From Tubulanus polymorphus (lineage: Eukaryota; Nemertea; Palaeonemertea; Tubulaniformes; Tubulanidae), in the NCBI RefSeq assembly GCF_964204645.1, contig NC_134029.1, forward strand, positions 5,589,001 through 5,653,000: a DNA stretch of 64,000 bases, written 5' to 3'. The translations under genes were made by a program, and so were the position numbers. Positions within the stretch are counted from its first letter, which is position 1, and each line of letters opens with the position of its first letter. The notes under the pieces were generated by a model, which saw only the letters and a list, made by a program, of their open reading frames with translations, was not told the DNA's origin and did no database searches. Positions 1-63,333 of the stretch are shown piece after piece.

Positions 1-1058
1 TGAAATTAAAATTCATAAGCTATCTAATATAGATATCACTTATCAGTAAAAGGGATTATCATTTTTTTATTGTAGTCGTTTTGCATCGATTGATTCTGCG
101 TATTTTCAGCAAGCTGTCTTAATATCAAACGTTTACAGTTGACCTTTTATGAATTCAAAATACAAAAATACAAATGCTAAATTGATAGGACTTTAAGCGG
201 AATAAAATTTAGAATACAGAATTATGTAATGTGAGATAACTTATTTGGTAAAAAATCTTAAGAATCGGTAATCTTATCGCGAAATTGATTAAAATGGTGC
301 CGTGAAATATTTTCAAATGTACATATGCATTCGAACGTCGAAAGTTTGCAGCAATGTGAAATTTTTTCCACCAAAAATTATTTGGCTTTATCAAATCACT
401 CATGTTTTACTTAATATGTCATTTTGTTCAAGAACCACCGCGCGCTGGTTTTTTATTCGACTCCGAATGCGGCGCATACGAAATACGAAATCGTTATTTC
501 AATTGAGGAATTGAGGGGTTAGCGATGAGCAACCCGTGGCTACAATGCGTGCAACGCGTGGCATGACACAACAGGGCGCTTAGCGTGTTTATGAATTCAT
601 GTTGTCCCCGAGTCGTAACATCTGAATATCATCCCAATTAATTCAATTAATAAAATCTTCACACGTCACCTTAATGAGCGCGATGTATGTTTTTAATCGA
701 GCGTAATATTGCCGAACCCGAATCAATCCGAATCTCTTTCTATTTTTCTTTGAAATTGATTTTTGTCCGAATTACGCGTGTGTTATACGGATATCAGTAG
801 GGAACATTGTAATTTTTCCTCCAACAAGCAGCAGGGGTAAAAATCCCAATAGCGAAAATATTGCTGAATAATTGAAGATTAAAAATGTTCGGCCTTCTGT
901 TCGGGATTCATCATGCGATCATTTTGGCACTAAATCTTTTTCGCAGCATTTGCCAGTAAAAAAATGCTACTAATTCTCTGCCTTTTTTACTCAAAAGTAG
1001 GTTTGTAACGAATGAATAAATGGTCGCCATGAAGTATTTAAGATTCAAATTGACTTAC
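1..1058 (-). other. Gsx intron 1, partial
   Basis: This stretch follows the Gsx exon 1 splice donor on the minus strand and runs off the window edge. I looked on the minus strand for the Gsx homeodomain (the WFQNRRVK core) and did not find it, so the homeodomain exon must lie to the left of position 1. The sequence is AT-rich and has no open frame resembling a protein. Confidence 0.7.
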
Positions 1059-1494
1059 CGATGCTTGGATAACGTATTCTGTTGGAATCATGAGCAAGTC
1101 GGTAAGGCGTCGGTCTGTCCAACGGCGGGCTGATGTTGCTGGCAGTTGGTCGAGGCATTCCTAACGACGGACGAGGAGCTGCCCGAAACGCTGATGGTAG
1201 AACATGAGACGACATGACGCTATTGGCCGCAATACTGCTTACCGGTTTTATCAGCGGTAGAGCCGAGGTCATCGGGATCATACCGGCAGGGGTTCTCACA
1301 CACAGGGGGCAGCACATACCGAACATGTCCGCGGGATGGGACCCAGCGCGCGGTATACAATGAAACGAATGACCAGGCAGTCCGTGCATGGCTGGATGGT
1401 CAACGTGTCCAATATGTCCGTTATTCAACGACGGGGAATCGAGTCCATTGGCTTTCTTCACTATCAACGAGTCCACCAAAAATGAGCGAGACAT
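1059..1494 (-). CDS. Gsx: Gsx ParaHox homeobox protein, exon 1 (partial gene)
   Basis: This is the first coding exon of Gsx (Gsh/ind family), a ParaHox transcription factor used in neural and anterior patterning. The start is the ATG at 1494. An upstream in-frame GTG is not credible as a eukaryotic start. The protein opens with MSRSFLVDSLIVKK, matching the family-specific, SNAG-like N-terminus (MPRSFLVDSL in vertebrates). About 60 residues on is MCCPLCVR, matching the conserved CPLCV motif of Gsx. The exon encodes 145 residues plus one base and ends at a strong donor (GTAAGT read on the minus strand, 1058-1053). This sits just upstream of where the homeodomain begins, as in other Gsx genes. 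The homeodomain exon is not in the window, so the identification rests on the N-terminal motif, the Cys motif, the gene structure and the neighbouring Cdx gene. Confidence 0.88.
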
Positions 1495-4400
1495 TTCTAT
1501 AAAGTTATTCCACTGACTTCTCACCCAAATATAAAAGGTATCCGAAGGAACAGATTTAGATTAAGTTCGTAATTGGATAAATCCTCTTATGATACGTGGT
1601 GTATTTTTCTTCGCTCGTGCCGCGATGTCGCGCATGCGGTTCCAAACGACAGTTTGATGCGAGTCCACTCAAATCATGGCTTTTATATGGCGAGCTATTG
1701 TCCCGATCGAGTCGACGAGCTGGATTCCGAATATCACGCATCAATCAATGGAAATTTAATAATGCTGACGAATCTCATCATTATAATAAAAAGCTTAGTG
1801 CAAATAAAGGCGACGCTTCAAGCATAAATACGACACGCAAGTGAAGCATTTTACCAATCAAAATTCTGCAATGTTTTGTTGAGCACGCGGCGGTCGTGCG
1901 AACGGGGCGGGGTCGGCTGGGACGTCCATCGATTCGGAGGGTTTTATTGGTCCGCAAACTGTACGCAGAAAACGCCTTTAAACTAGAAACAATTTTCATC
2001 TATCGATTAATAAATGATATAACAAAAATAAGTTGTATACATAGATTTATCGTTGATTATCGATTGATAACACTTAAAGATCTGCACGGACGACTGAAAA
2101 ATCTTTTTTTTTTTGATATGTATAGCAAATATTGGGCCAGTTTGTTTTTTTTGCTCATGAGAAATAAAACCTATTGTTGGAATGAGTATTTTGGTAAATT
2201 TCTGTCTTACAATCGTCCAATCCTGATCAACAACAAAGATTAACCAATAATACTGGGTAGACAAAATGTATATTGAATTGTATTGAGTCGATGTGAGTCA
2301 AGGCTATGTAGTTCAAGGTAAAAAGTACAAAATCCGATTTTCCCACAAAGGGAGCATCAATGTTCATTTGAATTCGACTTTTTATGTTTTTATATTTTTA
2401 AACGCTTTATCGTATGTCATTTTCGAAAATCTAGTTGCTCTTTGTAACATCTCGTTCAATCTGCATGCCGCCATATTTTTTTCGTGATATTACGCCTGAG
2501 CGCGCGAACAATGCGCTGGTCTCGACAATGCGATGTGGAAGCCGTTCCACCAAAACAGGTGCACGCTCGAATTATACATAAAACGTGTTTACTCACTTGC
2601 ATCCATATAATAACTGCAATGCGTAATTAATTTTAAAAATGTAAAAAAAACAAGATGACTCTTCATTTGTGTCGGCCTAATTTGTGGTTTCAAGTGAAGT
2701 TAATTTGTTCACAGCTGGTCAATGTTTATCGTATGCATTATTCACAAAAAGCGCCATGTATTCATTTCATTTTAGCTATAACGTTAAACTAAGCCACTTT
2801 TACGCGCGTTTTGATAAACGTCAATCGTTTGTAGACCCAGATGACGCCAACAATGATATTATGTAGCCTTTTTGTCTATTCAAACGGTTTCATTTAATGA
2901 AAATATTCATGTCAATATTATTACGATATGGTAATGATTTATATGAATTTCTTTTTAAATGTAGGTGATATATTCCATCATAAGGGTCTGTGAAACCCAT
3001 GTTGACGAGGCCAATTATCGCTGATAATAAAAAAAGATTAAAAAAGAGGATTATCAGATGTGGAGGGTGCCTTTTCTCTTGTTAGTAATCCCAGCTTCAT
3101 ATTCAAATGTGACACACTTAAAACCAGCTAACTTAGGTTATATTGATAAATGCATTCCTGTTAGTCAACGTAAGGGCATTTTATTATTAGATACATTAAT
3201 CAGATTCTTGTGAAATACATGCTTATTGTGAAATAGAGACGAAGCCTCTTGAATGAAGCATAGAAACATGTAATTCACAAATACGGGAATTAGTGGAAGA
3301 CGTTTCGAATGCTCAGTTTTCGTCCTCGGTAACTCGAGTTTCTAGTCATTTTCCGTTTACAAATCCATCTCAATTTAATTGGACTTAATGGATTCTGACA
3401 ATAGTCGGATAGAACGGTCCGTGTGAACTATGAGGCGACGCGGAACACGAGTAAATACTTATTAACGTTTAATACAATCACTGCAGGCTATTGTTTATAT
3501 CGTCCGAACAACGTTTAATAAGGAGTTTCGCTGAAACCGGACACTCAACAGTGTGGGCTAACAATAGCGCCCTGGAGTCCCCCATTCAATTTTGTGTTGG
3601 CTTTCACACCTGTCCAATGTATGTCCCGTGTTTCTTATTTACGGAGATACCCGAACGGGAAAGTATTTATCATGTATTGTGCGTATGATTAGAATAGATA
3701 TGTTTACAGTCTTGCACGTTTTGTTGCCACACAGATTCATCATCTTCGGCGCCAATCCAGGGACCACTGTCGAAAGTGGCAGAACTTAAAAAGGGCATTA
3801 GCCAGAACAAACGAGGTGGTATCATTTTTGACAATTGACTGCTTCGAGATGTAGTACTGCATATTGAGATACAGTTCCCAGGTATTAAAGACGAGATCCT
3901 GAATGTTGTGCATTTTTGTTGAAAATCATCTGCCTCGTCTTGTAAAAATTTGTCCTACTTTTGATGGAGACGACTAAATGCGTCTTTTTTACTTTGGGGA
4001 TGAAAAAGGGCACGAGATTTTCGCGAACGGTAGCACGAGCTTACCGTCTGAATCCGCGCCTCTACACAACAAACGTGATATTACCTTTTCTATTGCTTGT
4101 ATATTTGAAAAAAATATATATTTGAAAAAAAGTGGCGCCGTACATGTCTGAATTCTGGAATTTTGGAAGTTGAAATAGAGGAAAAGTTGAAATTAGGAAG
4201 ATCCTCTAATCTACAGTGTGATGCCATCGATGTTGTCTACAGAATTTGGGATCGAAACCGCGGCATTATGCGTAGATTTTTTCATCTCAATACAGTCTTT
4301 AATCGACAAATATGTCAACCGCACGGCGACCGCAAACTTGAAACTGAATTTACAGTAATTAAATAGCACTTATCTCTCATTTCGACAATACAGCGTACTT

Positions 4401-6197
4401 ATGATACTTAAAAAAGTATGAAAACAGACGCGGAAGCGCGACCATGTATGATTCGTATCTCGTGGATCGTACGCAGTCGCGCGCCTGTCACATCATCGAG
4501 GAGTCACATGGCGGCAAGCTGCACGTACTTGATCCAACCAAAGAGTGCCGATACTTATTAGATAGACCGCTACACGGCGACCACAGAACACGCGACAGTT
4601 ACAATTCGAACACAAAAATCTATATAACTCAAAATGAACGTATATTATGATGACCAGTAATTGAAAAAAATAGATCTAATTTACATATATTTGAATATGA
4701 TACTTCACGCGTAAACTCGAATGTTTCGATCGTTTTTCCTAAATTCAAGATTTAATTAAATGTCTAGTTAAACACGTTTCGCCGAGTGCTTGTGGTAATG
4801 TTTGCACTTTTTCGAAGTTTATTTAGACTATGAGTTCAAGAACCAGGTGATATGCGTGAAACAGTATTATTTGATAATCAAGGCCTTGGGACATGGCATA
4901 CGTGCTTCCCATCCAATTGCAGATCATCACAACCATGTCATTTGAAGCTATATGTGTTTAAAAATCTATACTTGTATTAATTCTAAATTACTATTTGAAC
5001 ACAACATATAATGACTGGAAGACTGGTAATAATCAAAGTTTTTTGAGTTAACAAGCAAGAACCCACAGTTGATATTAAAAAGTTTATAGTTTGACAGTTT
5101 CGGAGATTGAGAAACCATCCGCTGGAGATTGGCGCCAATGATCCACAAACCAATATAGTCGATTAGCAACTGGCACCACGAGATATTTGTGGAACTGACA
5201 TGTTTGAAATTCGAGTATTTTGGTGGATTCGGTTAATTGGAGGCATTTTATTTCTATTTCTGTCTAGGTTTTACGGCTATTCATTCACACTGCATCCGCT
5301 GACAAAGGCGATGAATTTGCCGCACGCACATGACCAATTTCATCTGGTCCAGTCTGGCTTGTTGTACGCTGACCAGGGGTATTTGATCACGTTCTAAAGA
5401 GTCTCTATCTTGACCTGACAATTGCTACAATGTTATAAAGTAGAATAAAAAAGAATAAAAAGCACGCTTCGTCCATGTTCCGTTCATTGTAAGCAGCTAG
5501 GGTCAGTTCACTGGTCAGTTTTTAAGTTATGGTCTCGCACATTGTAACTACCATCAGCTCCCGACGCGTGCGTCTCAAACAACAAGTAAATGGAGCTAAT
5601 ATAAACTGACGAGAAAGCCTGAGACATTCCCCATTTCTTAACCCTGAATTACTGTCGGATTGTGTTTTGTGTCCAATTATGATGAATACAAGTTTCATCC
5701 ATGCGCGCTTAATCTTGTACTGTCGGCACGTGTGCATGCCCGGTCACGTGATATTCAAGCAGACGAGACGGTGATACTTGTCACCAAATAAGCGGCCAAC
5801 AATTTCACGCAAGAATAAACGATGAAGATCAACGGATAATAATCACATTTTGAAACAGCAGACTGCGATTGTGAATGCTGGAAAAACAATTTGTAAACGA
5901 GTTCTCCGCAGCGCGCGCTGGGCGGATGTCCGTCCCACGCAAGCGAGCGGTCAGCCGATCCATGGCTCACCTGCCGAGAGGTCCGGCACGGACGCGGACA
6001 AAGACACAAGCTACAACCACTGCGATAGAGCTGGCGGACATTCAGTTAGTTTTTCGCGAAAAACGATAACTATGGGTTACCCAGTTTTTGTTTCCGCTTG
6101 GACATTCGACGCACAAAGAAGCGTTGCTGACCGCCTGTAGAATGACCATATGCTGAAGAACCAATTAGGCGAATACGGCTAGAGGGAACGACAAATT

Positions 6198-6253
6198 GGG
6201 ACATTTCATTTAGGATGAAAATCGTATGAATGTTCCTAAATGAAACATGCCCC
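6198..6253. repeat. Short hairpin, about 19-bp arms
   Basis: The left arm ends in CATTTCATTTAGGA. The right arm starts TCCTAAATGAAAC and ends ATGCCCC, pairing back to GGG at the left edge with one or two bulges. The loop is about 18 nt. It could be a decayed foldback element or a small structured RNA. The stem is short for a microRNA precursor. Confidence 0.45.
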
Positions 6254-9200
6254 GTACAAAAATAGTGTCGCGAACAACGGTATGGCGTGTTTGCTTTAGA
6301 CGGTAAGCAAATTTACGCACATCACACCTGAGGCACAGCCATTTATGTTGATTTAAAAACAACTTTTCTTTTTTTTACAAAGCAACATAAACTGCATTAA
6401 CGAAGTCTAATTTGTCTAGTATTTTTCACTTTGCCAAAGCCAACCATACTGAGTAGGCGTTCTACCTGTGGATTCGGAGGATATGGCTGGAAGCGATCCT
6501 CTAAATGAAATAAAGGGATTCGAAAAAACCACACCGAGCCAGATCTGTCCATATGTGACGGGCTAAAGCAACCTACAATTAAACGCAACAAGATGAAAGG
6601 GCTAAAAACTTCGCAATGGGAACAATACATCCATATGTTTTCTCATTAACAACCTTATGATCTTAATTTTCTATACGAGCGCGTTTGTTCATCTCTCTTC
6701 AAATTAGAGGTGACGATGTGATCTGTTGAAGTATAGTGCGAACGATAATAGGCATTTTGCCATGTTCTATTTGCATTTAAGCAGCGATTATTAGCCGAGA
6801 TTACGCACACGGTTAAATGCGTCGACTAAAAAATCGTCCATCCAATTGACTAATATGGATTTTGTCATTTAACATCCGGGTGGCTGCCTAGTTCGAACAA
6901 GGCCATCTGCTCGGAGCTCGACGATCAAAGGACATCGAGCAAAAACTGGTAATTAACAAAACACTTTTCAATGGACTGTTTTTGCTGCGTCGTAAAATTG
7001 AATTAAATCAAACGACGATTCATTTTCATCATCGGGTTTCAGACGCGGAAGACAGATGTCGCTACCTTCTCCATATCGTGTTATTATCGGACCTGCTAAT
7101 AAAATGTAGCGGCTAGATAACATCTACAAACGACGCGCGAACCGTAATTTATTTACCCACGTCCTGGCGTCAAATAGCTGCGAGGACTATCAGATTATCA
7201 TCAAATGAAATGCCACAGATTAGCGCGTTTCTTAAGCTCCGAATTCTTCTTAAATCTTACCTTTTAATTACCAAGCAGAAGTATACACTAACAAGATCAC
7301 CCGATCCCCTCCCCTTATCGGGGAGATGCATGAACAGGAACGAACAACAACTCGTGATTTTTAAGATTCTAACACGTTCGGATTTCGGTTCCAATTAAGC
7401 TCCTTAATCGCTGGAAATGGGTATCATTGTTTGATGCCCAGTCGTCAAGGGCCCTGTTATTCATTTGACTTAACGCGACGTTGAAAATACCAGGAAAAAA
7501 ATTTATCAATTTGTGGGCAAATGATTACGACACGACGCCCTATTATTAGCTAATTCACGTTTCGTAAGATTTTGTGAGATGAAGCGAAATGTTGGGCGGC
7601 AGAATCGCAAGTTTTGTCAATCAAGTCGGCTTTCACGAGTTGTCAACGTGGCGTTTAGGTTCTTGGAAATCATTCGGGGGTTGTCGGTAGTTGATGTGGC
7701 CAACAAAACTTCGGAAAACTGCCCACCGCCATTTTTATGGTGGCGAATTGCCAATTAAAAATAAGATAAGGAAAAATGATTTACGAAGTGGTGAACATTT
7801 CTAACTATTCCTGTCTGTTGTTAAAAGCTCCTTATATGGACTGTTGATCATCAGTTGGTTTGGGCTCACCCGGTAAGTACGTAGTCAATGTTGTGGGAAT
7901 TTTTTCCGGTTTCAATCCAAATCTCGAATAAAGATTCTGTAAAACGAAACAGATTCATGTCCTATTTAGACTGGAAGGAACGTGTATTATATTCCAAACC
8001 ACCACCTGCAGGTCAGGACATTCTATAATAAGTAATTGAATTTAGTTTTACAGCTAATAATAAAGAATAAAAATATGAAATTTCATGATAAATAATATAG
8101 CATTGAATGTGATCTATTGAATTGTATGCAATATTTGATCACCGGCTTCATAATTGCCACACATAAAACAATCGTTTCCATCCGACTGATAGAAAACTCA
8201 ATTCATAGCCTGTTTACAATACATCAGCATTTTATTATTAATTTTAGATAAACGTGACGCTATGTTTGCAGGCTGCCCAGGTGATGAAAGGTCCATTGTG
8301 TTCTATACATGGAGCCTATATATCAACGCTACAAAATTACCTTTGAAAAAATGCTAGCCATGCACCTTATCTCATATCATAAATATTTTCCGAAGAAATT
8401 CTTTTATCTCGTTTCGGTTACATCTCAAAAGCAACTTTCATGAACATTAAACTAGTAAGAAAGATTGGTAATACGCTTGGGTCTGTACCCAGTGACACCT
8501 ACTAACACAGCTTCAAGTAATTGTGGATTCGAGGAATTGGGGTTCGAACCTGAATAATGGTCGATCGACATCCAAAGAAGAGATTTTATATGAGGTGGTC
8601 CTGTCATGATGATCGCGAAGTATCGCAGTCTAAGAATATTTTGTTTCCTATATTTTCTCCTTAAATCTCTGTATGTATTACAAACCTGTTCCATTCTTGT
8701 GAATGCGGAAAATAGTGTCATTGGGACAAAGGGATCGTCTTGAGGTGGTCAAGATGGGCACGAGTCAGCAGCATTTAAATATAAAATTGTTATATACAAC
8801 GATACATAGCGCTCGTCGTCTTTTCTCCAGGAGATATAAGGCATATAACAATTCGAGATCTCTTTGAAAAGGTCTGTTAGGAACATTATGAAATTAATAA
8901 CTCGACAAGTGCTATTTCAATTAGTTGGTTAGTTGTAGCATATATCTAGCAATGGGTATTTTCGCTTGTGAGGTGTGTCATGTTCTACGTTCACCATTAT
9001 TTTATGATGCTTTCATATTGAAAATTGTTTCCCAGGGAGTATCTCGGCGTACGCACGTCGGCGCCATTGAGAATGGAGACCGGTAGAGGATAAACCTATA
9101 TGTTGTCGTTCAACAAAAACTACTCGTGGGAATCTCATCTTATTCATGTGACATATACAATAAAGAATAGGACAACTCTAGCACGTGAATATTTATCACG

Positions 9201-11744
9201 AGCGATATATGTAGTTGTATAGATTTATGGAATTGTCTTCGGTGACGACGTGGGTTTCCCACCGGGAGCGATGTCTTGTCGTCCCAACTTGTGTATTCGG
9301 TAATTGCCGTCATTGTTCCCGTCGAACGAACACCAGAAACCCGCCCAATTGCTCACTTCCGGTAGTTTCACCAGTTTTATTTCCTAGGACAAGGCAACGT
9401 AATTGTCATTTTTTGTCAACGGTTGGATAGGTCTAAATTCTCTGTTGACGTTTTATGTTATGCACGCAATTCGTAACCCCGTACAATGAAATAGAATTAT
9501 CACAAATTCAATAATCTCATTCGACCAATCATCCGACTCAATCTATAGGCCCTCCCAGAACTAAATCCCTCTTTCATTCGCGGCAGGTGTGTCGAGTTTG
9601 TAAGGGACGCATAATTCAATAAGAATCAAAATATAACCAATCAATCAAATCGATAGAGGAAAAGTATCCCTTATATATGTCGAAGTAAAATACATAGGAT
9701 CAATCCCTCCCTGTGAATCGAGGAGAGTTCCCTCGATAATATTATGAAAAACCGGTCAATCCTAATGCACCTACATTTTACTCCAGGTCAGGGTTCCGAT
9801 GCGAACGAATAACTACTTTGGCCTTGTTTCAAATAAAGGACTCGTGTCGCGGTCTCTTGTCTTCGTCACCTATAGTTCACTATAGAAATATGTTTTATGC
9901 GGCGCGTGCGTGAGCGCGTGTAACGCGCGCGGATGAATACAAGTATCTCATATTGATAACGCTAGACGGCGCTTGCGGTCGAATGAAATCCTGTAAAACG
10001 TGCCGAAACTATTTAGCCCGTTTTTAACAAATCAATCCTACCGTGGGAATCGTACTGTAGAAGCATTTAATGAAACCAATGATTCATATTTTCACACAAC
10101 TGATAAAAGAATATTCCTTTTTATCGTCTGCACTTGTACTTCCGATCGAACTCCTGAAAAAAGAGTTAATCTTTTATTGCGCACAACTGAATTTAATGGA
10201 AGGAATAAAGGACAAATAGTTACCACGTTAACAAAGTGTCCGTCTAACAAATGCCATTCGATATTGCCCTGTCGCTATAAAGTGTCGGTGAAATTTACTT
10301 TATAATCTGTTTGCTTCCATATCACACCTATTCTAATATTCAAAATGTGAACACAATGAGATGTCAAATCGAATACATTTCAGATGAAAATAAATGGAAA
10401 ATCAGGAAAAAACGATTTCACATTAATGACGATTATTATTAGTCTGAGTTAGAACTCCCGCCTTCGTAGAAATCTTCGCTAAATATCGCATTTTTCACTT
10501 AATGCCCGAACAAAACGACGATTCAATGGCCGATATGTGTATAATGACGATCTTGTGAAAGTTTATTGTTGAATACGAGCCAGGAGTCGAGACACACCTG
10601 TCGACTCGGAACTTCGAAGCTAGACCCCCGACTTACAATACGAGATCTCACACAGTTTATCAATCTGTTGACAGAACATTAATTTCACGGACACGACGAT
10701 AATTCTTGGTCGCTTATTAAGAATAAGGTTTTTTTCAAGGAAGTCCCCATGAACATATTTCACACGCATCCCAAGTGGCTGAGAACATGCCCAATTATTA
10801 TTAAAAAGAAAACATCGATTTTTCTGACGAAGATTCGGGGAGAATTGAATTTCGAGGGTTTTGTGCCAATTGCTGGAATGAAAATTGAAAATTTCAACCA
10901 AAGAAAACAAACGTTTTGATAATGCTGTGCCATCCATCATTTGAGGTTTCAATATTTAAGGACTTTGCGTTAAGACATTCATTTTTACTTTTCAACCCGG
11001 GATAGCAGACTCTTTGGGAAAGCCCGGGATCCACAAAAATATGAAAGAAATTACATTGCAACCAAAGATTTTCAAGGAAATATGCGATTTATATTTCATA
11101 TATCGAAATTCTTGCAAGGAAATCATTATTTACAAGATGAAACCCTATCGTACGATTCGTAGAACCGAAATCAAGCTTCTTAGTGGAGACCAATCAGTTG
11201 ATTCCCAGGAGATTCCGAGGAGTTCGTGATTCTACCAATATAGCACGCCTGGCGGGAATTTTCGTACAATAGCGATTTTGCGTTTAGTGTCAGATTTCGA
11301 CAACACGTAGGCGTGGCAGCACCATACAATGTGAGAAATTCTGTAAGAAATTTCGATTTGGAGAAACCCGGGCCTGATAAATAGCGAGCAATCATCACTG
11401 GCCTAATCTTACAACATTCCTATGAAAAATGAGATCAAACCGACGCAGAAACTGAGAAACTTGATACAATTTACATCTAAATCTTTATATTGTATACATA
11501 TTTGTATTTTAGCGGCAATATGGATGATCCTTGCTCATTAAAAAAAAAACATCGTAAGAATCAAATGTTCAGAATCAAATATCCCATTACATGAAGCATT
11601 TTGTATCATCATTATTCTATGTCTAATGAAATGAAAGAATTGAAGAATCTTCGAAATTGTAACATCTAAATAAAATCACATCGACGTTTATTCATGAAGA
11701 AAACGACCGTAAGACATAAGTACAACGCGTTACATCGTTACAAT

Positions 11745-11776
11745 AATCAAAATGATTATCAATCAAAATGATTATC
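11745..11776. repeat. 16-bp direct tandem duplication
   Basis: The unit AATCAAAATGATTATC occurs twice head to tail. Each copy contains GATTA, a core bound by many homeodomain proteins, so it could be a duplicated binding site. It could equally be replication slippage in AT-rich sequence. Confidence 0.55.
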
Positions 11777-12590
11777 AATGCGCTTATCTAGATCATAAGA
11801 AGTACCAACGTACAACAGATGAGCTGGACAGTGGTAAACTCTCAGGCTGGACGACACACCCGTGTCCTTAGAAAATTTAATTCAAATTTCCCACATGAAC
11901 ACGAGCGCATGTTCACCCGAATGTTGATAATCATAGGGCAGTAAGCGTCGGCATTCGTTTGATGTGGCCGCTAGTCTGGCGCTATACTGATAAGACTGTT
12001 TAACGCTTTGAAGTAGTGAAGCAATGATCGCAACGTATATACAGTTAAAATTAATGACCCTCTATTTCACGGGATATTAATATATATGACAACGCGTTGG
12101 CTATAGTTGATATTATATGTGAGGATGCGTTGTAAACAGGCGATATATAGAGTACATTGAGTCGAGTTCATGAAATCGGCCACACCTTTTGTAGCATATG
12201 TCGGAGTGCAAAGAATAAGAGCTTTCGAAGAGAAAATTGTGCTGTATTTAAGATACTTGGTCAGAACGGGTTTTCACGCGTTTACGAGACATTTCCCTCT
12301 AATAGACGCGAATAGACATTATTCCTCTCTTTTCATTTTCGAAATGGTTTTAAGTTGAAAGAAATAAAGTCTATAGTTTTCATCAAAAGTATAAGATTGG
12401 AACTACCCGATATCCCACTATACAGAACTGCCTCAAGTATAGAACATCCTGTTGTTGCGATAGGAACGAACGATAAATCGTAGTAAAACTGACAGGAAAC
12501 AAAAACACGTGTAAAACTTTGTAAAAATACTTTAGAAAAATTGTGATCTTCGAAAAGTTGAATAGGTCATTTAGCGACGACAGAGGGAGG

Positions 12591-12700
12591 GACTCGCATT
12601 ACGTCACGCAGCCATGACGCGCCACTATTGGTCGTTGAACACAACGCGGCCTACATCGACCGGAGATCAAAGGGTAGCCGCCATCATTAAAAGAGCAATA
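12591..12700 (+). promoter_or_regulatory. Candidate Cdx promoter-proximal motif cluster
   Basis: Within about 335 to 225 bp of the Cdx start codon are a CRE/ATF-like TTACGTCA (12599-12606), a reverse CCAAT box ATTGG (12627-12631), a TCF/LEF consensus AGATCAAAGG (12664-12673) and a YY1-like GCCGCCAT (12677-12684). No clear TATA box was seen. Direct control of Cdx by Wnt through TCF/LEF is well known in vertebrates. That these sites work here is inference from matches to short consensus sequences. Confidence 0.4.
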
Positions 12701-12915
12701 ACTCTAAATTATGGCAGTTTGTCAAATATCGCTTTGTAGATAGCCGAGCTATGACTTTGTGTAAGTTGATTGATGGGTAATATAGAAAGGACACGCAACT
12801 AGTTAACTATAACCGAGTTCAACGGGTACGCAGCGGCAAACCGAGCTCTCTTTACAGAGGGCATCAGAGCAAGCGACCATTACGTGTTCAGTACTTCAGG
12901 CGAACGGCAGTTTCG

Positions 12916-12921
12916 ATGTGA
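12916..12921 (+). promoter_or_regulatory. Minimal start-stop upstream ORF (ATG-TGA) before Cdx
   Basis: An ATG immediately followed by TGA ends two bases before the Cdx initiation codon at 12924. The main ATG has A at -3 and G at +4, a good Kozak context. The start-stop ATG has T at -3 and T at +4, so it is probably often bypassed. Start-stop elements can stall ribosomes and lower translation of the main frame in other systems. An effect here is inference. Confidence 0.4.
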
Positions 12922-12923
12922 GG

Positions 12924-13680
12924 ATGGTTTCAGTTCAATTTGAGCCTCATTTGACCATGTTACCCGGACATCATCATCACCATCATCATCCGCAAAACTC
13001 TTGGAGCTGCGCGCCACCGAATCCGTTCTGTTATCCGCAGCCGCAATCGACAACTACTCAGTACAATCAGGACTTATCCGGACAATATCATCACCACCAT
13101 CACCATCTTCAGCATCATCTATCCACGGCTACAGTCACATCACCTTACGGTATCGGCAACGAGAATTTGGCATACGGCAATCAGCAGCATTCTCCGTGGC
13201 CCGGTCTTTACCCAACGGCATCGGCGACCAGTACGCGCAATATTGACTGGGCACCGCCATTCGCGACAACAAACACACCGAATCAGTTACCGGCGGGCAG
13301 TACTAGTTCTCATCTTCCTCAAGGCGGTATTAATACGATCAGTAATCATCATCACCATCATCATTTACCTCTTCATCAACAAACTCACCACCATGAAGAC
13401 GTCAAGCCACTCTCGCCGTCATCTCAGCAGATTCCGACACAAGCATCGGTCACAGCGGTTCCTTCCCATCACCATCATCACCAAGCAGCCATGGGTATGT
13501 TATCTACTCGACCGATGGGTGTACCACATCGTAGCGATACTTCAGGCGGAGGCGGTCTGGTCTCAACGTCTGCGGGACCTACGTCCTCCAGACAGCAACA
13601 ACAACTATCGCCAAGTAAATCAGAAACGTCCGAATATTCGGAATGGCTGAAGAGCGAAAATCAACAAGAAACTAAAAAAT
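12924..13680 (+). CDS. Cdx: Cdx exon 1
   Basis: Encodes residues 1-252 plus one base. Four uninterrupted His runs (7, 6, 6 and 5 residues) are separated by Ser/Thr/Pro/Gln-rich sequence. They use mixed CAT and CAC codons, so they are not a pure DNA microsatellite. The exon ends ACTAAAAAAT followed by a strong GTAAGT donor. The hexapeptide-like YSEWLK lies 15 residues before the splice site. Confidence 0.93.
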
Positions 13681-16600
13681 GTAAGTATTCGATCAGCAAA
13701 AACCGAAAATCCTATCTCATCTTAATATCAATCGTTCTTGGAAATGCATATAACCTTATCAAGTTATCTAAATGGAATTGAACAACTAAAGACCAAAATG
13801 TTGATCAAAATCTCCATGATTTCACTTCAAACAGGGAGTCTTCACGATTCTTCACGTTATTATCTGAAACATTTCAGTTTTTGAAACAATGAAATGATAA
13901 ATGCGAATTTCATAGTGAAAGCGTGCACGAATGGTTTCAAAACATGAATTTAGATGATATGTATCAAGAGCCATGTATCTTTTCTAGTTGTCGTGTCTTT
14001 CAAATAATTATTTGAGCACTGTTTATAAAATCTAAACAAATCAAGAAATTGATGAGTGAGCTCATTACAATTAACGCAGTCACAAAATAAATTCTGGAGC
14101 AGGAACAAAATTTATGAATATTTCTTCTCCAGTGTTGTCAAGCGTTTTAGATTATTATTCCAACAGCGCATGTTTATATTACACTGATGTAAAGCGCACT
14201 GATTAAAATTTGTAGGAGTTCGCTATATAATTATGTTATTATTATAATTATGATAATGATAATTTATCATCAATAAATCCTACAAAAATGGCCCCTAAAA
14301 TCACTGGGCCAAATTGTCTTATGAATTTAAAATTATGCGCATTTCTCCGAAGAATTTGGATAGATTGGTCATATACATTTATATCTTATCAATATTATTC
14401 GGCAAATATCTAATTCTACAATTTAATATGCCCGCCCGTGTTGCGTGATTTTGCAACGCTATTCAATACGGATTCACAGCAGGTATGCAATTGAAACTAA
14501 TAGGATAACAATCAAACCACATTTAATAAACTCTATTTGAATACGAAGAATTTTACTAGATATAAGTGGTGACCGGTAAACAATCAAATGACAATCTTTA
14601 AACGGTTGTATTCCACGACGATTAGCTAATTCCTGTTGATATATTTTCCCAGGCTATATAGCCAGTCTATTTAATCTTGTACCCCGATTCGTCGGTATAT
14701 TTACGGAAGATAATCGGATTAAAGAAGTTAATTTGAAGGATCGATGTGTCTAGACACCGCTGTGACATGTTTTCGATGCGGGCAAAATGTTCGAAATAGT
14801 ATTATTCCGCAAGAATTGACGCAAATTGGCTTAATTCGTGTATTGTCTTATTGGACGTATTAAACGAGCTTAATTGCATATCCATATTAATCCTATTTCA
14901 CGATTGCAAAGTACTAGTAATTTTGTATACGATTTATTTCAGAATAATCCGTAAAAATCTGTCGAAATTTAAGAAATTCTATATATCATATTCCAAACAT
15001 TTTGTATCAATGTGCAATGCTTAAGAATTTGAATATTTTGCATAAGACGTTGTATGACAAAATATATATAAAAAAGTCGATAGTGTTGATTTTAAAAATA
15101 TCATGATTTACTACATAATTTTGTATATGTTTTCTCGCCGAGCTTTTTAAACATATCGTACAAAATGAATCACGTATAATTATTGATATTCTTTTTTGGA
15201 AATGTGTAAAAAAGAAACGAAAACGATAATCGGGCATCCTACGAATTGATTGTCCATGCAGTCGGCGATTTGTGTCCAGAAAATAAAAGAACTTTTGTTA
15301 AATTTCTCGGTATAGCGCCTAATCGTTAGTCATATTCTCAACTTCGCTTTAAATTATTACTAACTATTCTCGGTAGGAACTATTTAAAATCAAAAGAGAT
15401 CGTAGGCGCTCTAATCAAAGAGACTATTCTCTTTTTATGGAGTTGAGACGTCACGGAATTCCTATCAATTTCGCATTTAATCTTTCGAAATGGTCTGGTT
15501 TTCGGAGAAACCCCACAAAAGACAGGAAGCAGCGTTTTAGAATACATATATGTATAATGATGGTAGCTAAAAGTTTAATATTTTCAAAGAATTGAAAAAA
15601 ACCTACATGAATTTAGGAGTTTATTAGAAATGATGTTTGTTCGTATGGTCCTAATCAGTAGCAGGACAACTTAAAAAACTGAATAATGAAAAATTGACAC
15701 CAGGGTTCTGGCTTTCCGCTTCATCACGGTCGTGCTTGTAATCTATGCATTTTCGTCGTGTATATATTATAGTGTATCAAATCGTATTAATTAATGACAC
15801 TTCAAGGCGTGAAAATCACTCCCAACATAAATCACGTTATACCTTATCATTATATAACGATATATGATGACTGATTTCATATTCCACTGTCGAAGGTAAA
15901 GTCGAGCAATTGTTTACTGGTTTATAAACTCGAATATTTTATTAGGGGCTCTATACGGTGTGATTTACAATCAGCCGTTTAATGACTTATGAATATCAGT
16001 TTCGATTATTTTATGGACTCGACAATACAGCAATAATGTGCCTGTCTCATGCTCAAACCGACTTCATATAATAATAATAATCATAATATGTACATCATAA
16101 ATTAATTTATATATGAAAGGTGTATAATTTACGTTGTTTATTGCATCACAAACTGAAGCCGCGCTACGCCACGATCTACACGTTACCAAACCCGTGGATT
16201 TTAGTCATTACAATTTCATTATTCACAAAAAAATGAGAAATATCAACTTTGATTCACGGTTAAGATAGAAACCTAGGGGATTTTCTCTGTATAGATTGAA
16301 GATCATTCCGAAAAAAGGGCATTTTTAGATCAAAAGTTAGATATCTTCACAAAACAGCCTTATTTTCATTATTCTCAATGGTGTTTAAAATCAGGCTTTC
16401 TAAAATTCCAAGTGAATATTTACTGTATTTCATTTGTAAACGCATTAAGAACGCATTAATTATAATGAAATTAGAATTCAGATTGAGAAGCTCCTTCGGC
16501 TCTTTTAGGGTTTCTAGCATATGTAACCTTGAAGGACAATAATTGAATTTTCTAAGCAAAAAATATATTCTGTATTTCATTAGCAAACGCATTAAGAACG

Positions 16601-19600
16601 CATTAATTATAATTAAATTGGAATTCAGATTGAGGAGCTCCTTCGGCTCTTTTAGGGTTTCTAGCATATGTGACCTTGAAGCACAATAATTGAATTTTCT
16701 AAGCACAAAATATATTCACCCGGGATGGATTGGGGGTAACAAAGGAAGTCTTATCAGAAGAACTTAGAATAGCCACATTAAATTCGCGTCGCCAACGCAT
16801 AAACATTGACAACGTCTTCAATTCAATTCCATAGTTGATACCTACATTAGATAACATATGGATTTCTGCGTATCTACGCGATATTTATCTAGATTAGACA
16901 AATACGCGTAAATCCGCAATACGATTTATACGAGGATATGCGAGAATCTTGTATTTGTGCCCCTGATGATTTTTTAATTGCTGGCAAACTCTAGTCGGAT
17001 GCGGGTGTAATTAGTCTCGACGAGGCGCTACTCAGTCAAAGCCGTGTAAAATATTATTTGAAAAGAGTTCTATTTCATCTTCGAAAATAAAGTAGGCAAT
17101 CTGCCTCGGGGGCTGGGGGGTCGATATATCGATTTGACGGTTAGAAACCTGGCAATGAGGTGCGAGTTTGTGATCTCCAAATGGCCGCCGAGGTCCTAAT
17201 GATGTTTTAATGATGGTATCGTTGGGTATCTAATGTGCCATATTACATCATAAGACATTGACTCCTCGCCACTTGGCGACTAGCCCTCTCGCCTTCCGAT
17301 TATCTAATACCAGTCATTTCAAGTCGATTAAACTGTTTAGATAAATAGTATTTTACTTGCAATATTTCATTCGCCAACTCAAATGAAATTTCCCACATTG
17401 TATATACCATTTGTATTTTCATAGTTTTGGCTATTTTACTGTCAGATCTTCGCAGGTCGATTTTAAGTTAAGTTTCTTGTGTTTTTATTGCTATTTAGTT
17501 TGTTTATACGATTTGTATATAAATGGTGATTTTAGGGACTGTATCGAGTGGGTTATAGTGTAGTGACGTGCACTGTTTAACCCTCGTGTCGGCGATCTTC
17601 AAAGGATCCGAATAGTAATGGCCGAATGCCGACCAGACATTTGTCATCCAGGAGTCAGGGCATCTGTTACTGGCTTTCTATTCGCTTCAGCGCCAATCAT
17701 CATTATCTTATATACATATGATACATGTTACCATTAATAACAGTTTTGGTCGGCGGATTTCTGCATTGAATTACGTACTAATATGTAATACACGAATTTC
17801 AACCACATATGTCGATATAAATATAATTAGTATCGGACATCATTCAGTCAATTTTTGAGATACGAGTCACTTTGGCGCAAAAACTACAGTTTAGACCATA
17901 TCTAAAACTTCGCCGATAGCGATTTTCATCGCGCTATGGCCGATACGTGAAAAGTGCCGAATTGTAAGGAGAATTGTCCCGTTAAATGTCAAAAGAATGA
18001 CGGTGGATTGACGGCGGACAAAAGACGTTGGGTGATTTACACGATTCCTGTTCAACGGATCTGCAGAAAATAATAACAACACGAAGCATATACGTCGTCG
18101 TCGTCGTCGTCGGGGGTTGATAGTATACAAAAGATTCGAGAGATTCTTATAGACACGGACGGACGAAATTGCCGGTTGTTTTAGTTTTAGCTCGTAAAAT
18201 CTGCACCGGGCGAACCCGCAGCATTTGCGCGAAACATAGCCACCAATATCTGATCTGATTGGAGAACGCGTTTATTACTGGCCTCGAGTCTGCTGTTGTT
18301 ACTGACAGTAGTGTACTTTATCGCGCAGTCAAACGTATTCGAGGAAATGAGTTTGAGAGAATATTTTTGCCATAAATCGTTTTTTTCGGGGACGCTAAGG
18401 TCGCCCTCTCGATCATAGGGATGTAAAACCTAGAAAAGAAACCCCAATGAAACGCGTGGAAATCGAAATTGTTTATAAGAAATCACTGTATTCGTGGTAG
18501 ATACGAATAGAGATGATCCAGATCTAGTCATGAAAATTAAACGTTGAATTGGCACGAAGTTTCGGTCACCATAGATTAAGTACAGCTCAATATTTTACAT
18601 AGAACCGCTTCAATTAACCTAGATATACTGCTTTAATAACTGATGATTAATGACCACTCAACTCATTAATATCTCCATTCATTTGGATTCATCCCTATCT
18701 GTAGTACAAAGGTTCGCCCGCACCACGCTAACCCTGACCGTGTTCAATTGTTATGGACCCCAACGAATATTGGGTGTGAGGCAAACGCATTCACCTTCTA
18801 CTTCATATCAAGAAAGCTTACAATTTTCTATTCGTTTTTGGCTCGGTTTATGTATGGAAAAGTATTTATGAAGAATATTGTTCCAAGCTGTACCCGTGCT
18901 GCATGGTAACGAGGGCTATTGGGCCAGGGTCCAGTTGCTCTGTGAAATAGCCGTTGGGACTAAGCATAAGTCAACCATGGTCTTATAGCGCTGTACAATA
19001 ATTAACATGGTCAAAAGTCACGTTTGACCGTATAGATAGATCATCCAATTAAACTTCAATTGAATGCTACAATATTCTATGAAACTGTTACAATTTGTTT
19101 ACTCAGGCCGGCATGGGTCGTTTTAATTAAGCCTGAATTCGCAACAATATCCGTTCGACTGGTATTGTACAACCGTACCTAATTGCTCTGTGTCAACTAA
19201 AGTGGATTCCGATCATAAAGACCAGAGGAAGTCAGAGTCCACATACCACAAACAAACATCGCGCCAAGCTTATTAGTGAACCACCGGTGCGAGACCGATT
19301 AAGACTCTAGGACAATTCGCGACTGGCCACAACGAGACCAACAACAACAACGACGGTCACAATATTGTCCAATGGTCGTTAACACGACCGGAGTTACATT
19401 GTTGACGGTGGACATTAAAATGACCATCCATCATTTTGGCTGTTTGCATTGATTGAAGTGACCGCTCGCGACAATAGTTCACGCAGTAACGCTGATTATC
19501 CACTCGATGATCAAACGCTATCCGACATTCGAGAATCATCGGCAGTTTTCGTATATTTTCGTTAACCTAATTACTAAATCATTTTTCTTCTAATTTCAGG

Positions 19601-20090
19601 GAAAACCAGAACGAAAGAAAAGTATAGAGTAGTTTATACGGATAGACAACGTCTAGAACTCGAGAAAGAGTTTCATTTTAATCGATATATAACATTGAAC
19701 AGGAAAGCCGAAATATCCAAATCGTTAGATCTCACCGAGCGACAAGTAAAAATCTGGTTTCAAAACCGGAGAGCGAAAGAGCGAAAAGATAACAAACGCC
19801 GGATGGAAAAAGATATGACCAGCCCATCTTCGACGAAATCCGGCCCGGAAGATGAGAAAAATAGCCCGAATAGTCCGCAAACCGAAGCGCACTCTGCGCA
19901 TGCGCAGGCGTATCGCCTGAAAACGGAACTGGCCTATGACCACGTTATCGCTGGTCAGCAGCAGACTACCTATTCAGAAATGGACTCGATACCGCATTCT
20001 AATAACCGAACGGGACATACTCAACTGATGCGTGATAGAACCAAAGATAATCTAGGTTTACCAATAAAAACAGAATATCACCTCCAATAG
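12924..20090 (+). CDS. Cdx: Cdx (caudal-type) ParaHox homeobox protein, two exons
   Basis: A complete caudal-type homeobox gene, joining 12924-13680 to 19600-20090 (1,248 nt, 415 residues). Cdx proteins are nuclear transcription factors specifying posterior body axis and gut. The start is the ATG at 12924 with a good Kozak context; the in-frame GTG upstream is rejected. The N-terminal half is Gln, Ser, Pro and His rich, with four His tracts. A hexapeptide-like YSEWLK at residues 238-243 corresponds to the YEWM-type PBX-binding motif of Cdx. The homeodomain spans about residues 258-317, with the caudal signature KYRVVYTD and the recognition helix [14 protein letters not shown]. The single intron falls just before the homeodomain, as in other Cdx genes. 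The tail ends [10 protein letters not shown] and contains two psi-K-x-E matches (LKTE, IKTE), possible SUMO sites. It lies divergent from Gsx and about 3.3 kb upstream of BLTP1 in the same orientation. Confidence 0.95.
16423..16716. repeat. 147-bp tandem duplication in the Cdx intron
   Basis: Two head-to-tail copies (16423-16569 and 16570-16716) differ at about 8 of 147 positions. Each copy includes a short hairpin with GAGC and GCTC arms around CCTTCG. The period is 49 codons, so a minus-strand frame stays open through both copies. That is an expected by-product and not evidence of a gene. Confidence 0.9.
18093..18112. repeat. CGT trinucleotide microsatellite
   Basis: About seven CGT units in the Cdx intron. 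On the minus strand it reads as poly-Arg in one frame, which is a shadow and not a gene. Confidence 0.85.
19600..20090 (+). CDS. Cdx: Cdx exon 2 (homeodomain and C-terminus)
   Basis: The acceptor CAG ends at 19599 and the first two bases complete the split codon. The exon carries the entire homeodomain, including F20, W48 and N51 at expected positions (W48 is residue 305), then a Lys/Arg-rich extension, a Ser/Pro-rich tail and the stop codon TAG. The helix-three sequence [15 protein letters not shown] is diagnostic for the caudal class and excludes Xlox, which has RMKWKK. Confidence 0.96.
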
Positions 20091-23300: not shown

Positions 23301-23369
23301 ATGGGTGTACTTAAATCGCTCACTGAAATATGTGCATTCATGACCAACCATGATAGTGTGATTCTATAG
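23301..23369 (+). promoter_or_regulatory. 22-codon upstream ORF before BLTP1
   Basis: If the BLTP1 first coding exon starts at the acceptor ending 23273, its leader contains this short frame (MGVLKSLTE... ending at TAG), about 35 bases before the BLTP1 start codon. It is not homologous to the BLTP1 N-terminus as far as I can see. Whether it is transcribed depends on the unmapped transcription start. Confidence 0.3.
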
Positions 23370-61358: not shown

Positions 61359-63333
61359 GATTCATTTATTTTTACCTAAACTTTAAAAACTTTGCTAGAT
61401 TTAAAACCATTAGGAACAGCTTACGATCGATTTTTTTAGACTATTTAAGGACAAAGGGGCAACTTCATGGAGAAGACTTAATTGGAGGAAAATGTTCATT
61501 TAGATTCATTTTTACCTCTGATAACTATTATCTACTATTTAATCTGGAAATATTTATAAACCTTTGTATTTTATGTTAACTTGTATTCATATGTGACTTG
61601 GTAGATTTTAAGAAAACTGTAAAATACAAAGATGAATTTACACCGTAGATACTGTTTCGTTGTAGCCAAATCTAAAATCTTAGATAGCCTAATTACTATT
61701 AAGTAACATATGTATAATTATGAAGATGATGCAATATAGGGGTTGTATAGAATGATAATCGAAAGTAGATTAATTCAATTAGGTTTTTGTAAAATATTTT
61801 TTTTCTATTTTTCTGCTTATGTTATTGGCTTCATTAGCTGAGACCAGTGACAGGTGGTAGCATGAGTATGCCAGTACCGGTATATGGATTAAACCCCAAT
61901 AGTATATTTTAAGACCTTTCAAAGTGCATGAACCTGTAATATTATTTCATCACCAACCTATATTGTCAGTTTATCATGATTATATATCGATCATAACCAT
62001 TGTATTCTAGTCGAGTCAACGTCTTTGTTTGGTGACATTCTGTGATTGATTTGTAACATGCTTGATTCTAGAATGATAGTTAATGTAAAAACAACGTTTT
62101 ATATTTTTGGCATTCATAAATGTAATCATAGATTAGAAATGCATTGTAGGTTTGTAAATTGTAGAATTTGTGATAGAAACATTTTAGTTTACTGATAATA
62201 TTCGGAACGTAGCAATGGTTGAATGTTAACTGCACGACTGAACAAAACGCTTTAGATTCCAGCAGCTAACTATTTTATCATCTGTTAGTTATCTGATCTT
62301 TCATTCTTAGATTAGCATTATGATACTACACAATTACATCGGACAATAGTTATTTAGTATAAATCGAATTATTTTATTACTTTCGAGTCTATTTGTCGGC
62401 AAATATTTGTAAAAAAGTTAATTTTGAATTAATTATTAATGCGATGTATAGATTATGTTATATATGGTGGTAAAATATATACATATATTTATTCAATACC
62501 TTTGTTGCTTTGTCTGCGCTATCGCGTCCACTCGACGTTGTTTTCCGACACGGGCGCCGCCTATTGAATAAACGAGGAAACGTATTCTGTTCATCTCGAT
62601 TGATCTGCCCTTTTGTCTATGATACAGCGCTTTTGTTTAAAAAGCATGTATTAGAAATATCATCAAAAAGATAAGAAAGTATTCGTTTAAAGTTTAAAGT
62701 AATTTTACTGAAATTCTGGTAACTATCAACCGTCGAAGGTTGGATCAGAACACCGTGCTGTTCAATCCGATATTTACTTATATATTCAACTTCGATTCAA
62801 TTTATGTTAGCTTTGCGCAGTGGCGGTACCATAGCCAATGAGGATTATCCGAGGCGTGGTTATTGCTAGTTGAAAACTATACCCAATACCCCGCACTGAC
62901 GACCGCAAGGTCGGTAGTGCAATTTTTGATAGCCTCTACGGAGGCAGATTAATGACGAAAATAGAGATTGAAAATCATCCTGACAAACTCGAATTGCTGG
63001 GGCGCAACTCATTCTATCAGCTCAAATTAAAGATTACCCCCAGTTAACAGGCACTTAGGCGTTCATTGTTCACTTTAACTCGTGACTTGATTTCATAAGT
63101 TCACTACATAAAATCCCAACACCTGATAATGGTCTCTAGAAAGAGTCCGAAGGTTTCAATTCTTTATCAATAAATTCCGATTTTAATCTTTTAAATTTGT
63201 TTGCAGTGTCTTTTATAATCCCCTTTCTACCCTCCACCTGAAATTGTGTCCAAGTTTGTAGGCCTACTCAAGGTGTGATGTGAATGAGATGAGGGTACGT
63301 GGAATGTGCTGGGTACTTAGGGGTAGATAATTT

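Follow-up and report, generated by a model that had tools for sequence, protein, structure and literature searches.

A head-to-head Gsx–Cdx pair without a recognised Xlox: a likely two-gene ParaHox remnant in a lophotrochozoan, possibly a nemertean

The stretch of DNA analysed here (the window; C5:5589001–5653000, 64,000 nucleotides) belonged to an assembly of 267.8 Mb in 77 contigs and contained the ParaHox gene Cdx and the first exon of a second ParaHox gene, Gsx. The two genes were arranged head to head, Gsx on the minus strand and Cdx on the plus strand, with 11,429 bases between their start codons (spacer, positions 1495–12923). These ParaHox members are adjacent, with no recognised gene intervening. 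The original prediction had described Gsx exon 1 and Cdx as a linked, divergent pair 11.4 kb apart, and both the measured distance and the homeodomain identities agreed with it.

Exon 1 of Gsx (positions 1059–1494, minus strand) extended from the start codon at 1494–1492 to a GTAAGT donor after position 1059, and was followed by the part of the intron that lay in the window (positions 1–1058, minus strand). Its translation began with MSRSFLVDSLI and included a CPLCV motif; the SFLVDSLI N-terminus and the CPLCV motif, both read in the translation, are presumably hallmarks of Gsx. When the sequence was extended to the left of position 1, as had been proposed, the homeodomain exon was recovered on the minus strand at C5:5588077–5588573, with the homeodomain at C5:5588362–5588532 and 427 bases between the first base of the exon and window position 1. 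A Gsx homeodomain, and not that of another family, thus lay past the 1059 donor. The predicted spliced Gsx, with the two exons joined by reading, formed an open frame of 310 residues. Its homeodomain was identical to a human GSX1 homeodomain at 55 of 57 positions. The search of solved structures placed GS homeobox 2 (8eml) first with an E value of 8.3e-32, followed by an engrailed construct (4.6e-28, with the match split into two segments) and then by Pdx1 (1.2e-21). In a homeodomain tree of 32 rows, 17 of them references, with few columns, an unsettled bootstrap and four of its 29 inner branches starred, Gsx clustered with GSX1 and ind (support 100/97). By reading, a cysteine-rich stretch, RKCRCLRTC, began eight residues past the homeodomain block of 57 residues. 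Most protostome Gsx proteins have a cysteine-rich stretch behind the homeodomain (PMC13161344, a review). The predicted minus-strand gene is Gsx.

Cdx was composed of two exons on the plus strand. Exon 1 (positions 12924–13680) extended from the start codon at 12924 to the donor and carried EYSEWLKSE near its end, and exon 2 (positions 19600–20090) contained the homeodomain (19620–19787) and the stop codon (20088–20090). The predicted Cdx, joined at the chosen donor and acceptor, had 415 residues and read complete. The stretch EYSEWLKSE, a variant hexapeptide-like sequence, ended by reading 13 residues ahead of the homeodomain block. The six best solved-structure matches of the Cdx exon were all CDX-1 or CDX-2, with E values from 2.3e-28 to 6.6e-27, and the tree described above grouped Cdx with CDX2 and caudal (support 99/100). 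The predicted plus-strand gene is Cdx. Within its intron, a 147-base unit was repeated 2.1 times with a 93% match at positions 16415–16717.

The longest stop-free frame of the spacer was 132 amino acids, which was at the level of shuffled sequence (mean 131.7; reached in 44 of 100 shuffles). None of the ten longest of the 30 listed spacer frames exceeded a Pfam cut-off, and one of these ten gave a match below the cut-off to DUF2000 (14.4 bits against 25). Three short stretches of the spacer, at about 3748–4068, 5008–5108, and 9519–9669, matched elsewhere in the genome (at least 43 matches, with 39 of 158 candidates scored) and resemble small dispersed repeats. The match list lacked the query's own place and is thus incomplete, so that uniqueness of the remaining spacer is not implied.

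The spacer, the rest of the window and its flanks (40 kb on the left and 30 kb on the right) contained no N. The original prediction had pointed to an assembly join between positions 1494 and 12924 as a possible flaw, and no sign of one was seen. That Gsx and Cdx were wrongly joined in the assembly is extremely improbable: the window and 70 kb of flanking sequence are free of N and both genes read intact.

The whole assembly was searched for Xlox with a PDX1 homeodomain as query, and all 81 candidates were scored, which gave 42 matches. No Xlox was found in the assembly searched; the six matches that outscored Gsx all belonged to the C6 Hox cluster. Of the 42 matches, 36 were translated, the Cdx of the window included, and none of them showed the ERHIKIWF stretch of the query. 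In six of these 36, the frame exited the homeodomain at an intron before the ERHIKIWF point, and these six therefore cannot show the stretch. The six matches left untranslated each scored at most 35.3 bits. As ten Hox homeodomains, Gsx and Cdx could all be seen, masking is an unlikely reason for the missing Xlox, although it may lie in a stretch hidden from the search. A Pfam homeodomain search gave at least 115 matches (150 of 170 candidates scored), and the 40 homeodomains inspected (39 translated and the Cdx of the window) included one of Gsx type and one of Cdx type. The predicted gene set thus falls short of the full ParaHox trio of Gsx, Xlox, and Cdx, as Xlox was not found in the searched assembly, and at best a two-gene remnant survives.

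Protostome ParaHox genes are mostly dispersed (PMC13161344). In the nemertean Notospermus geniculatus, Xlox is missing, and Gsx and Cdx are retained as an incomplete cluster (PMC13161344), with the loss of Xlox reported likewise in PMC10675955; the same content, no Xlox with Gsx and Cdx kept, was found here. In the rotifer Brachionus manjavacas, Gsx and Cdx also lie on the same scaffold on opposite strands and no Xlox was found, but 4.425 Mb and several other genes separate the two (PMC13161344). In Platynereis dumerilii, Gsx likewise stands head to head with a ParaHox neighbour, with no non-homeobox gene between, whereas the pair there is Gsx–Xlox at 42 kb and Cdx is located elsewhere on the same chromosome arm (PMC2723086). 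Capitella represents a further broken ParaHox state (PMC2723086). In a millipede, Gsx and Cdx are linked, and these two alone are named as a cluster that is described as loose, compared with the 11.4 kb found here (PMC7523956). The two genes are unlinked in Drosophila and Tribolium and are 28 Mb apart in a tick (PMC10726417), and the chordate Gsx–Xlox pair is in tandem (PMC2723086). In the titles and abstract openings surveyed, with subscription journals poorly represented, a head-to-head arrangement of Gsx and Cdx was not described.

On this evidence, the pair is likely to be what is left of the ancestral ParaHox cluster in a lophotrochozoan, possibly a nemertean, in which Xlox was lost and the divergent Gsx and Cdx stayed adjacent. 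It is probably a further case of the incomplete Gsx–Cdx cluster reported for Notospermus geniculatus. Xlox would have been lost from the ancestral cluster with Gsx and Cdx remaining neighbours, and their adjacency would have been inherited from that cluster and not produced by later rearrangement. Relative to the chordate order, the divergent order would require local inversions or a transposition.

The genes around the pair were examined for ParaHox linkage. Beyond the 3′ end of Cdx, the first gene to be recognised was BLTP1 (tweek/KIAA1109), also on the plus strand, with its outermost recognised frames at positions 23357–61082. Six of its frames matched BLTP1_N, BLTP1_M, or BLTP1_C, and three of the six exceeded the family cut-off; three BLTP1_N pieces remained below it, at 46.2, 24.6, and 46.3 bits against 100. 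A full-length, plus-strand match to the U4 spliceosomal RNA was located at 62809–62944 and scored 125 bits, compared with a gathering score of 46. To the right of BLTP1, a frame with the Mab-21 C-terminal domain (L005:3526–5334) was followed by an exon of a rhodopsin-family receptor (L006:2757–3176). Ten flanking frames picked by eye, seven on the left and three on the right, gave no Pfam match.

In Platynereis, Ccna, Exosc9, Btk, and Rad50 are neighbours of ParaHox genes (PMC2723086), and the first three were found on the contig of the window, with Ccna from C5:23056259, Exosc9 at C5:23063712–23067399, and Btk at C5:23359389–23361000. The best-scoring rows of the Btk query were kinases on C2 and C1, not on C5; the locus at C5:23.36 Mb was taken as Btk because no other rows reached the identities of two of its exons (63 and 71%). 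Among the 49 structure matches of one of these exons, 44 were named BTK, and the remaining five comprised the top row, which carried the label epidermal growth factor receptor (678 residues), and four rows of generic kinases or a reconstructed ancestor. Contig C5 is weakly consistent with an ancestral ParaHox linkage group. Several points weigh against unbroken descent of the pair. Ccna, Exosc9, and Btk are about 17.5 Mb from Gsx–Cdx, so that local order was not kept, and Rad50 was found off the contig, at C9:10350368–10351766. The three linked genes lie within about 0.3 Mb and thus amount to roughly one linkage event, and C5, with 24.9 Mb, makes up 9.3% of the assembly, which corresponds to a chance co-location of about 1 in 11. 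The claim of a surviving ParaHox cluster in the original prediction holds for the linkage of Gsx and Cdx but has to be qualified, as Xlox was not found in the searched assembly and the neighbours support unbroken descent weakly.

The remoteness of these neighbours also suits a different history, in which Gsx and Cdx first moved apart on the ParaHox chromosome, as happened in Platynereis, and were later rejoined head to head by an intrachromosomal rearrangement. A chordate-type order from which only Xlox had disappeared would not leave a divergent pair, and broken clusters have been described in both Platynereis and Capitella (PMC2723086). However, two sister genes would have to meet by chance within 11.4 kb on a contig of 24.9 Mb, local inversions following the loss of Xlox would be simpler, and Notospermus too is said to have retained both genes in an incomplete cluster (PMC13161344). 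We consider such a secondary adjacency unlikely.

The affinity of the organism was assessed from its Hox genes and globins. Ten Hox homeodomains, all on the plus strand, followed one another without a break at C6:5318228–5634747. By their signatures, we take their order to be Post2-like, two Lox4/Lox2-like, Antp-like, Lox5-like, Scr-like, Dfd-like, Hox3, pb, and lab. The Lox5-like gene bore KLNGP after its homeodomain, which is presumably a Lox5 sign. The homeodomain tree supported groups for only some of these genes. The predicted C6 Hox set reads as lophotrochozoan, not insect; an insect-type reading, prompted partly by the high CpG ratio of 1.23, was dropped in view of the canonical Hox3, Lox5-like, and Post2-like genes recognised by these signatures. 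A divergent posterior-like homeodomain at L023:52–222 (C7:16160411) is possibly Post1, but has a long branch in the tree. On contig C2, two homeodomains (L027:51–221 and L046:49–219) were located 18 kb apart with identical 57 residues and would represent a recent or well-kept tandem pair.

One globin had as its best solved-structure matches a nerve haemoglobin and haemoglobins III and II, which we take to be of molluscan origin. Three globin exon matches (including L048:1501–1743) were located within 11 kb at C4:6812547–6823116, suggesting a tandem globin group. A nemertean mini-haemoglobin query gave zero matches and, having no positive control, does not show absence. Searches for molluscan haemocyanin (beta-sandwich) and for the annelid haemoglobin linker were empty, and this emptiness does not show absence either. 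A search of the assembly for COX1 gave no match, and hence no mitochondrial contig was recognised.

Some of these features differ from those described for nemerteans and weigh against that part of the favoured interpretation. Lox2 and Post1 were not found in the nemertean Micrura (PMC4426647), whereas two Lox4/Lox2-like genes were present here. Notospermus is described without a Hox cluster and with a duplicated Dfd (PMC10675955), in contrast to the ten-gene run with one Dfd-like gene. The unmatched mini-haemoglobin query points the same way. It is possible, though not probable, that the organism belongs to another lophotrochozoan phylum, one for which the loss of Xlox with Gsx and Cdx kept was not described in the literature consulted. 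The two Lox4/Lox2-like genes with the possible Post1, the unbroken Hox run, and the presumably molluscan globin matches would all fit such a phylum. No haemocyanin or linker match accompanied them, with the limit just stated for those searches, and in the literature consulted nemerteans are the lophotrochozoans said to have lost Xlox yet kept Gsx and Cdx (PMC13161344).

The remaining question was whether the two genes share their control. Bidirectional promoter spacers are short, about 1 kb or less, and the distance between the start codons of Gsx and Cdx is far longer. Motif counts in the spacer were compared with 200 shuffles, and no excess was found in any of three motif classes. The Cdx-type motif TTTATKR occurred 15 times (mean 17.3; 152 of 200 shuffles reached 15), TAATTA five times (mean 7.6; 168 of 200 reached five), and the TCF-type motif CTTTGWW 12 times (mean 10.1; 62 of 200 reached 12). 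The suggestion in the original prediction that Gsx and Cdx could draw on a single regulatory block thus gained no positive evidence. The divergent orientation, with no recognised gene between, would be in keeping with a spacer that acts as a single shared enhancer block, the use of which by both genes keeps them together, but none of the motif classes was enriched, and Gsx and Cdx usually work at opposite ends of the animal. A constraint of this kind has been proposed for the head-to-head Gsx–Xlox of Platynereis (PMC2723086). Such an enhancer block seems quite unlikely here, and shared Gsx–Cdx control is possible but unproven.

In the favoured interpretation as a ParaHox remnant, Gsx and Cdx would each be driven by a promoter and enhancers of their own, located within the 11.4 kb spacer and its surroundings. 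They may also retain their usual family roles, with Gsx a homeodomain factor of the anterior nervous system and Cdx one of the posterior body and hindgut. It is very unlikely that Xlox was lost independently in a lophotrochozoan outside Nemertea and that the divergent pair was held together by shared control elements in the spacer; if this were true, direct regulation of Gsx and Cdx could maintain ParaHox clustering without the middle gene.

Because protostome ParaHox genes are mostly dispersed (PMC13161344), a tight, gap-free Gsx–Cdx pair without Xlox is a useful data point. It raises the question of whether clustering outlasts the loss of the middle gene through inertia or through shared regulation, and the 11.4 kb spacer is small enough for reporter tests.

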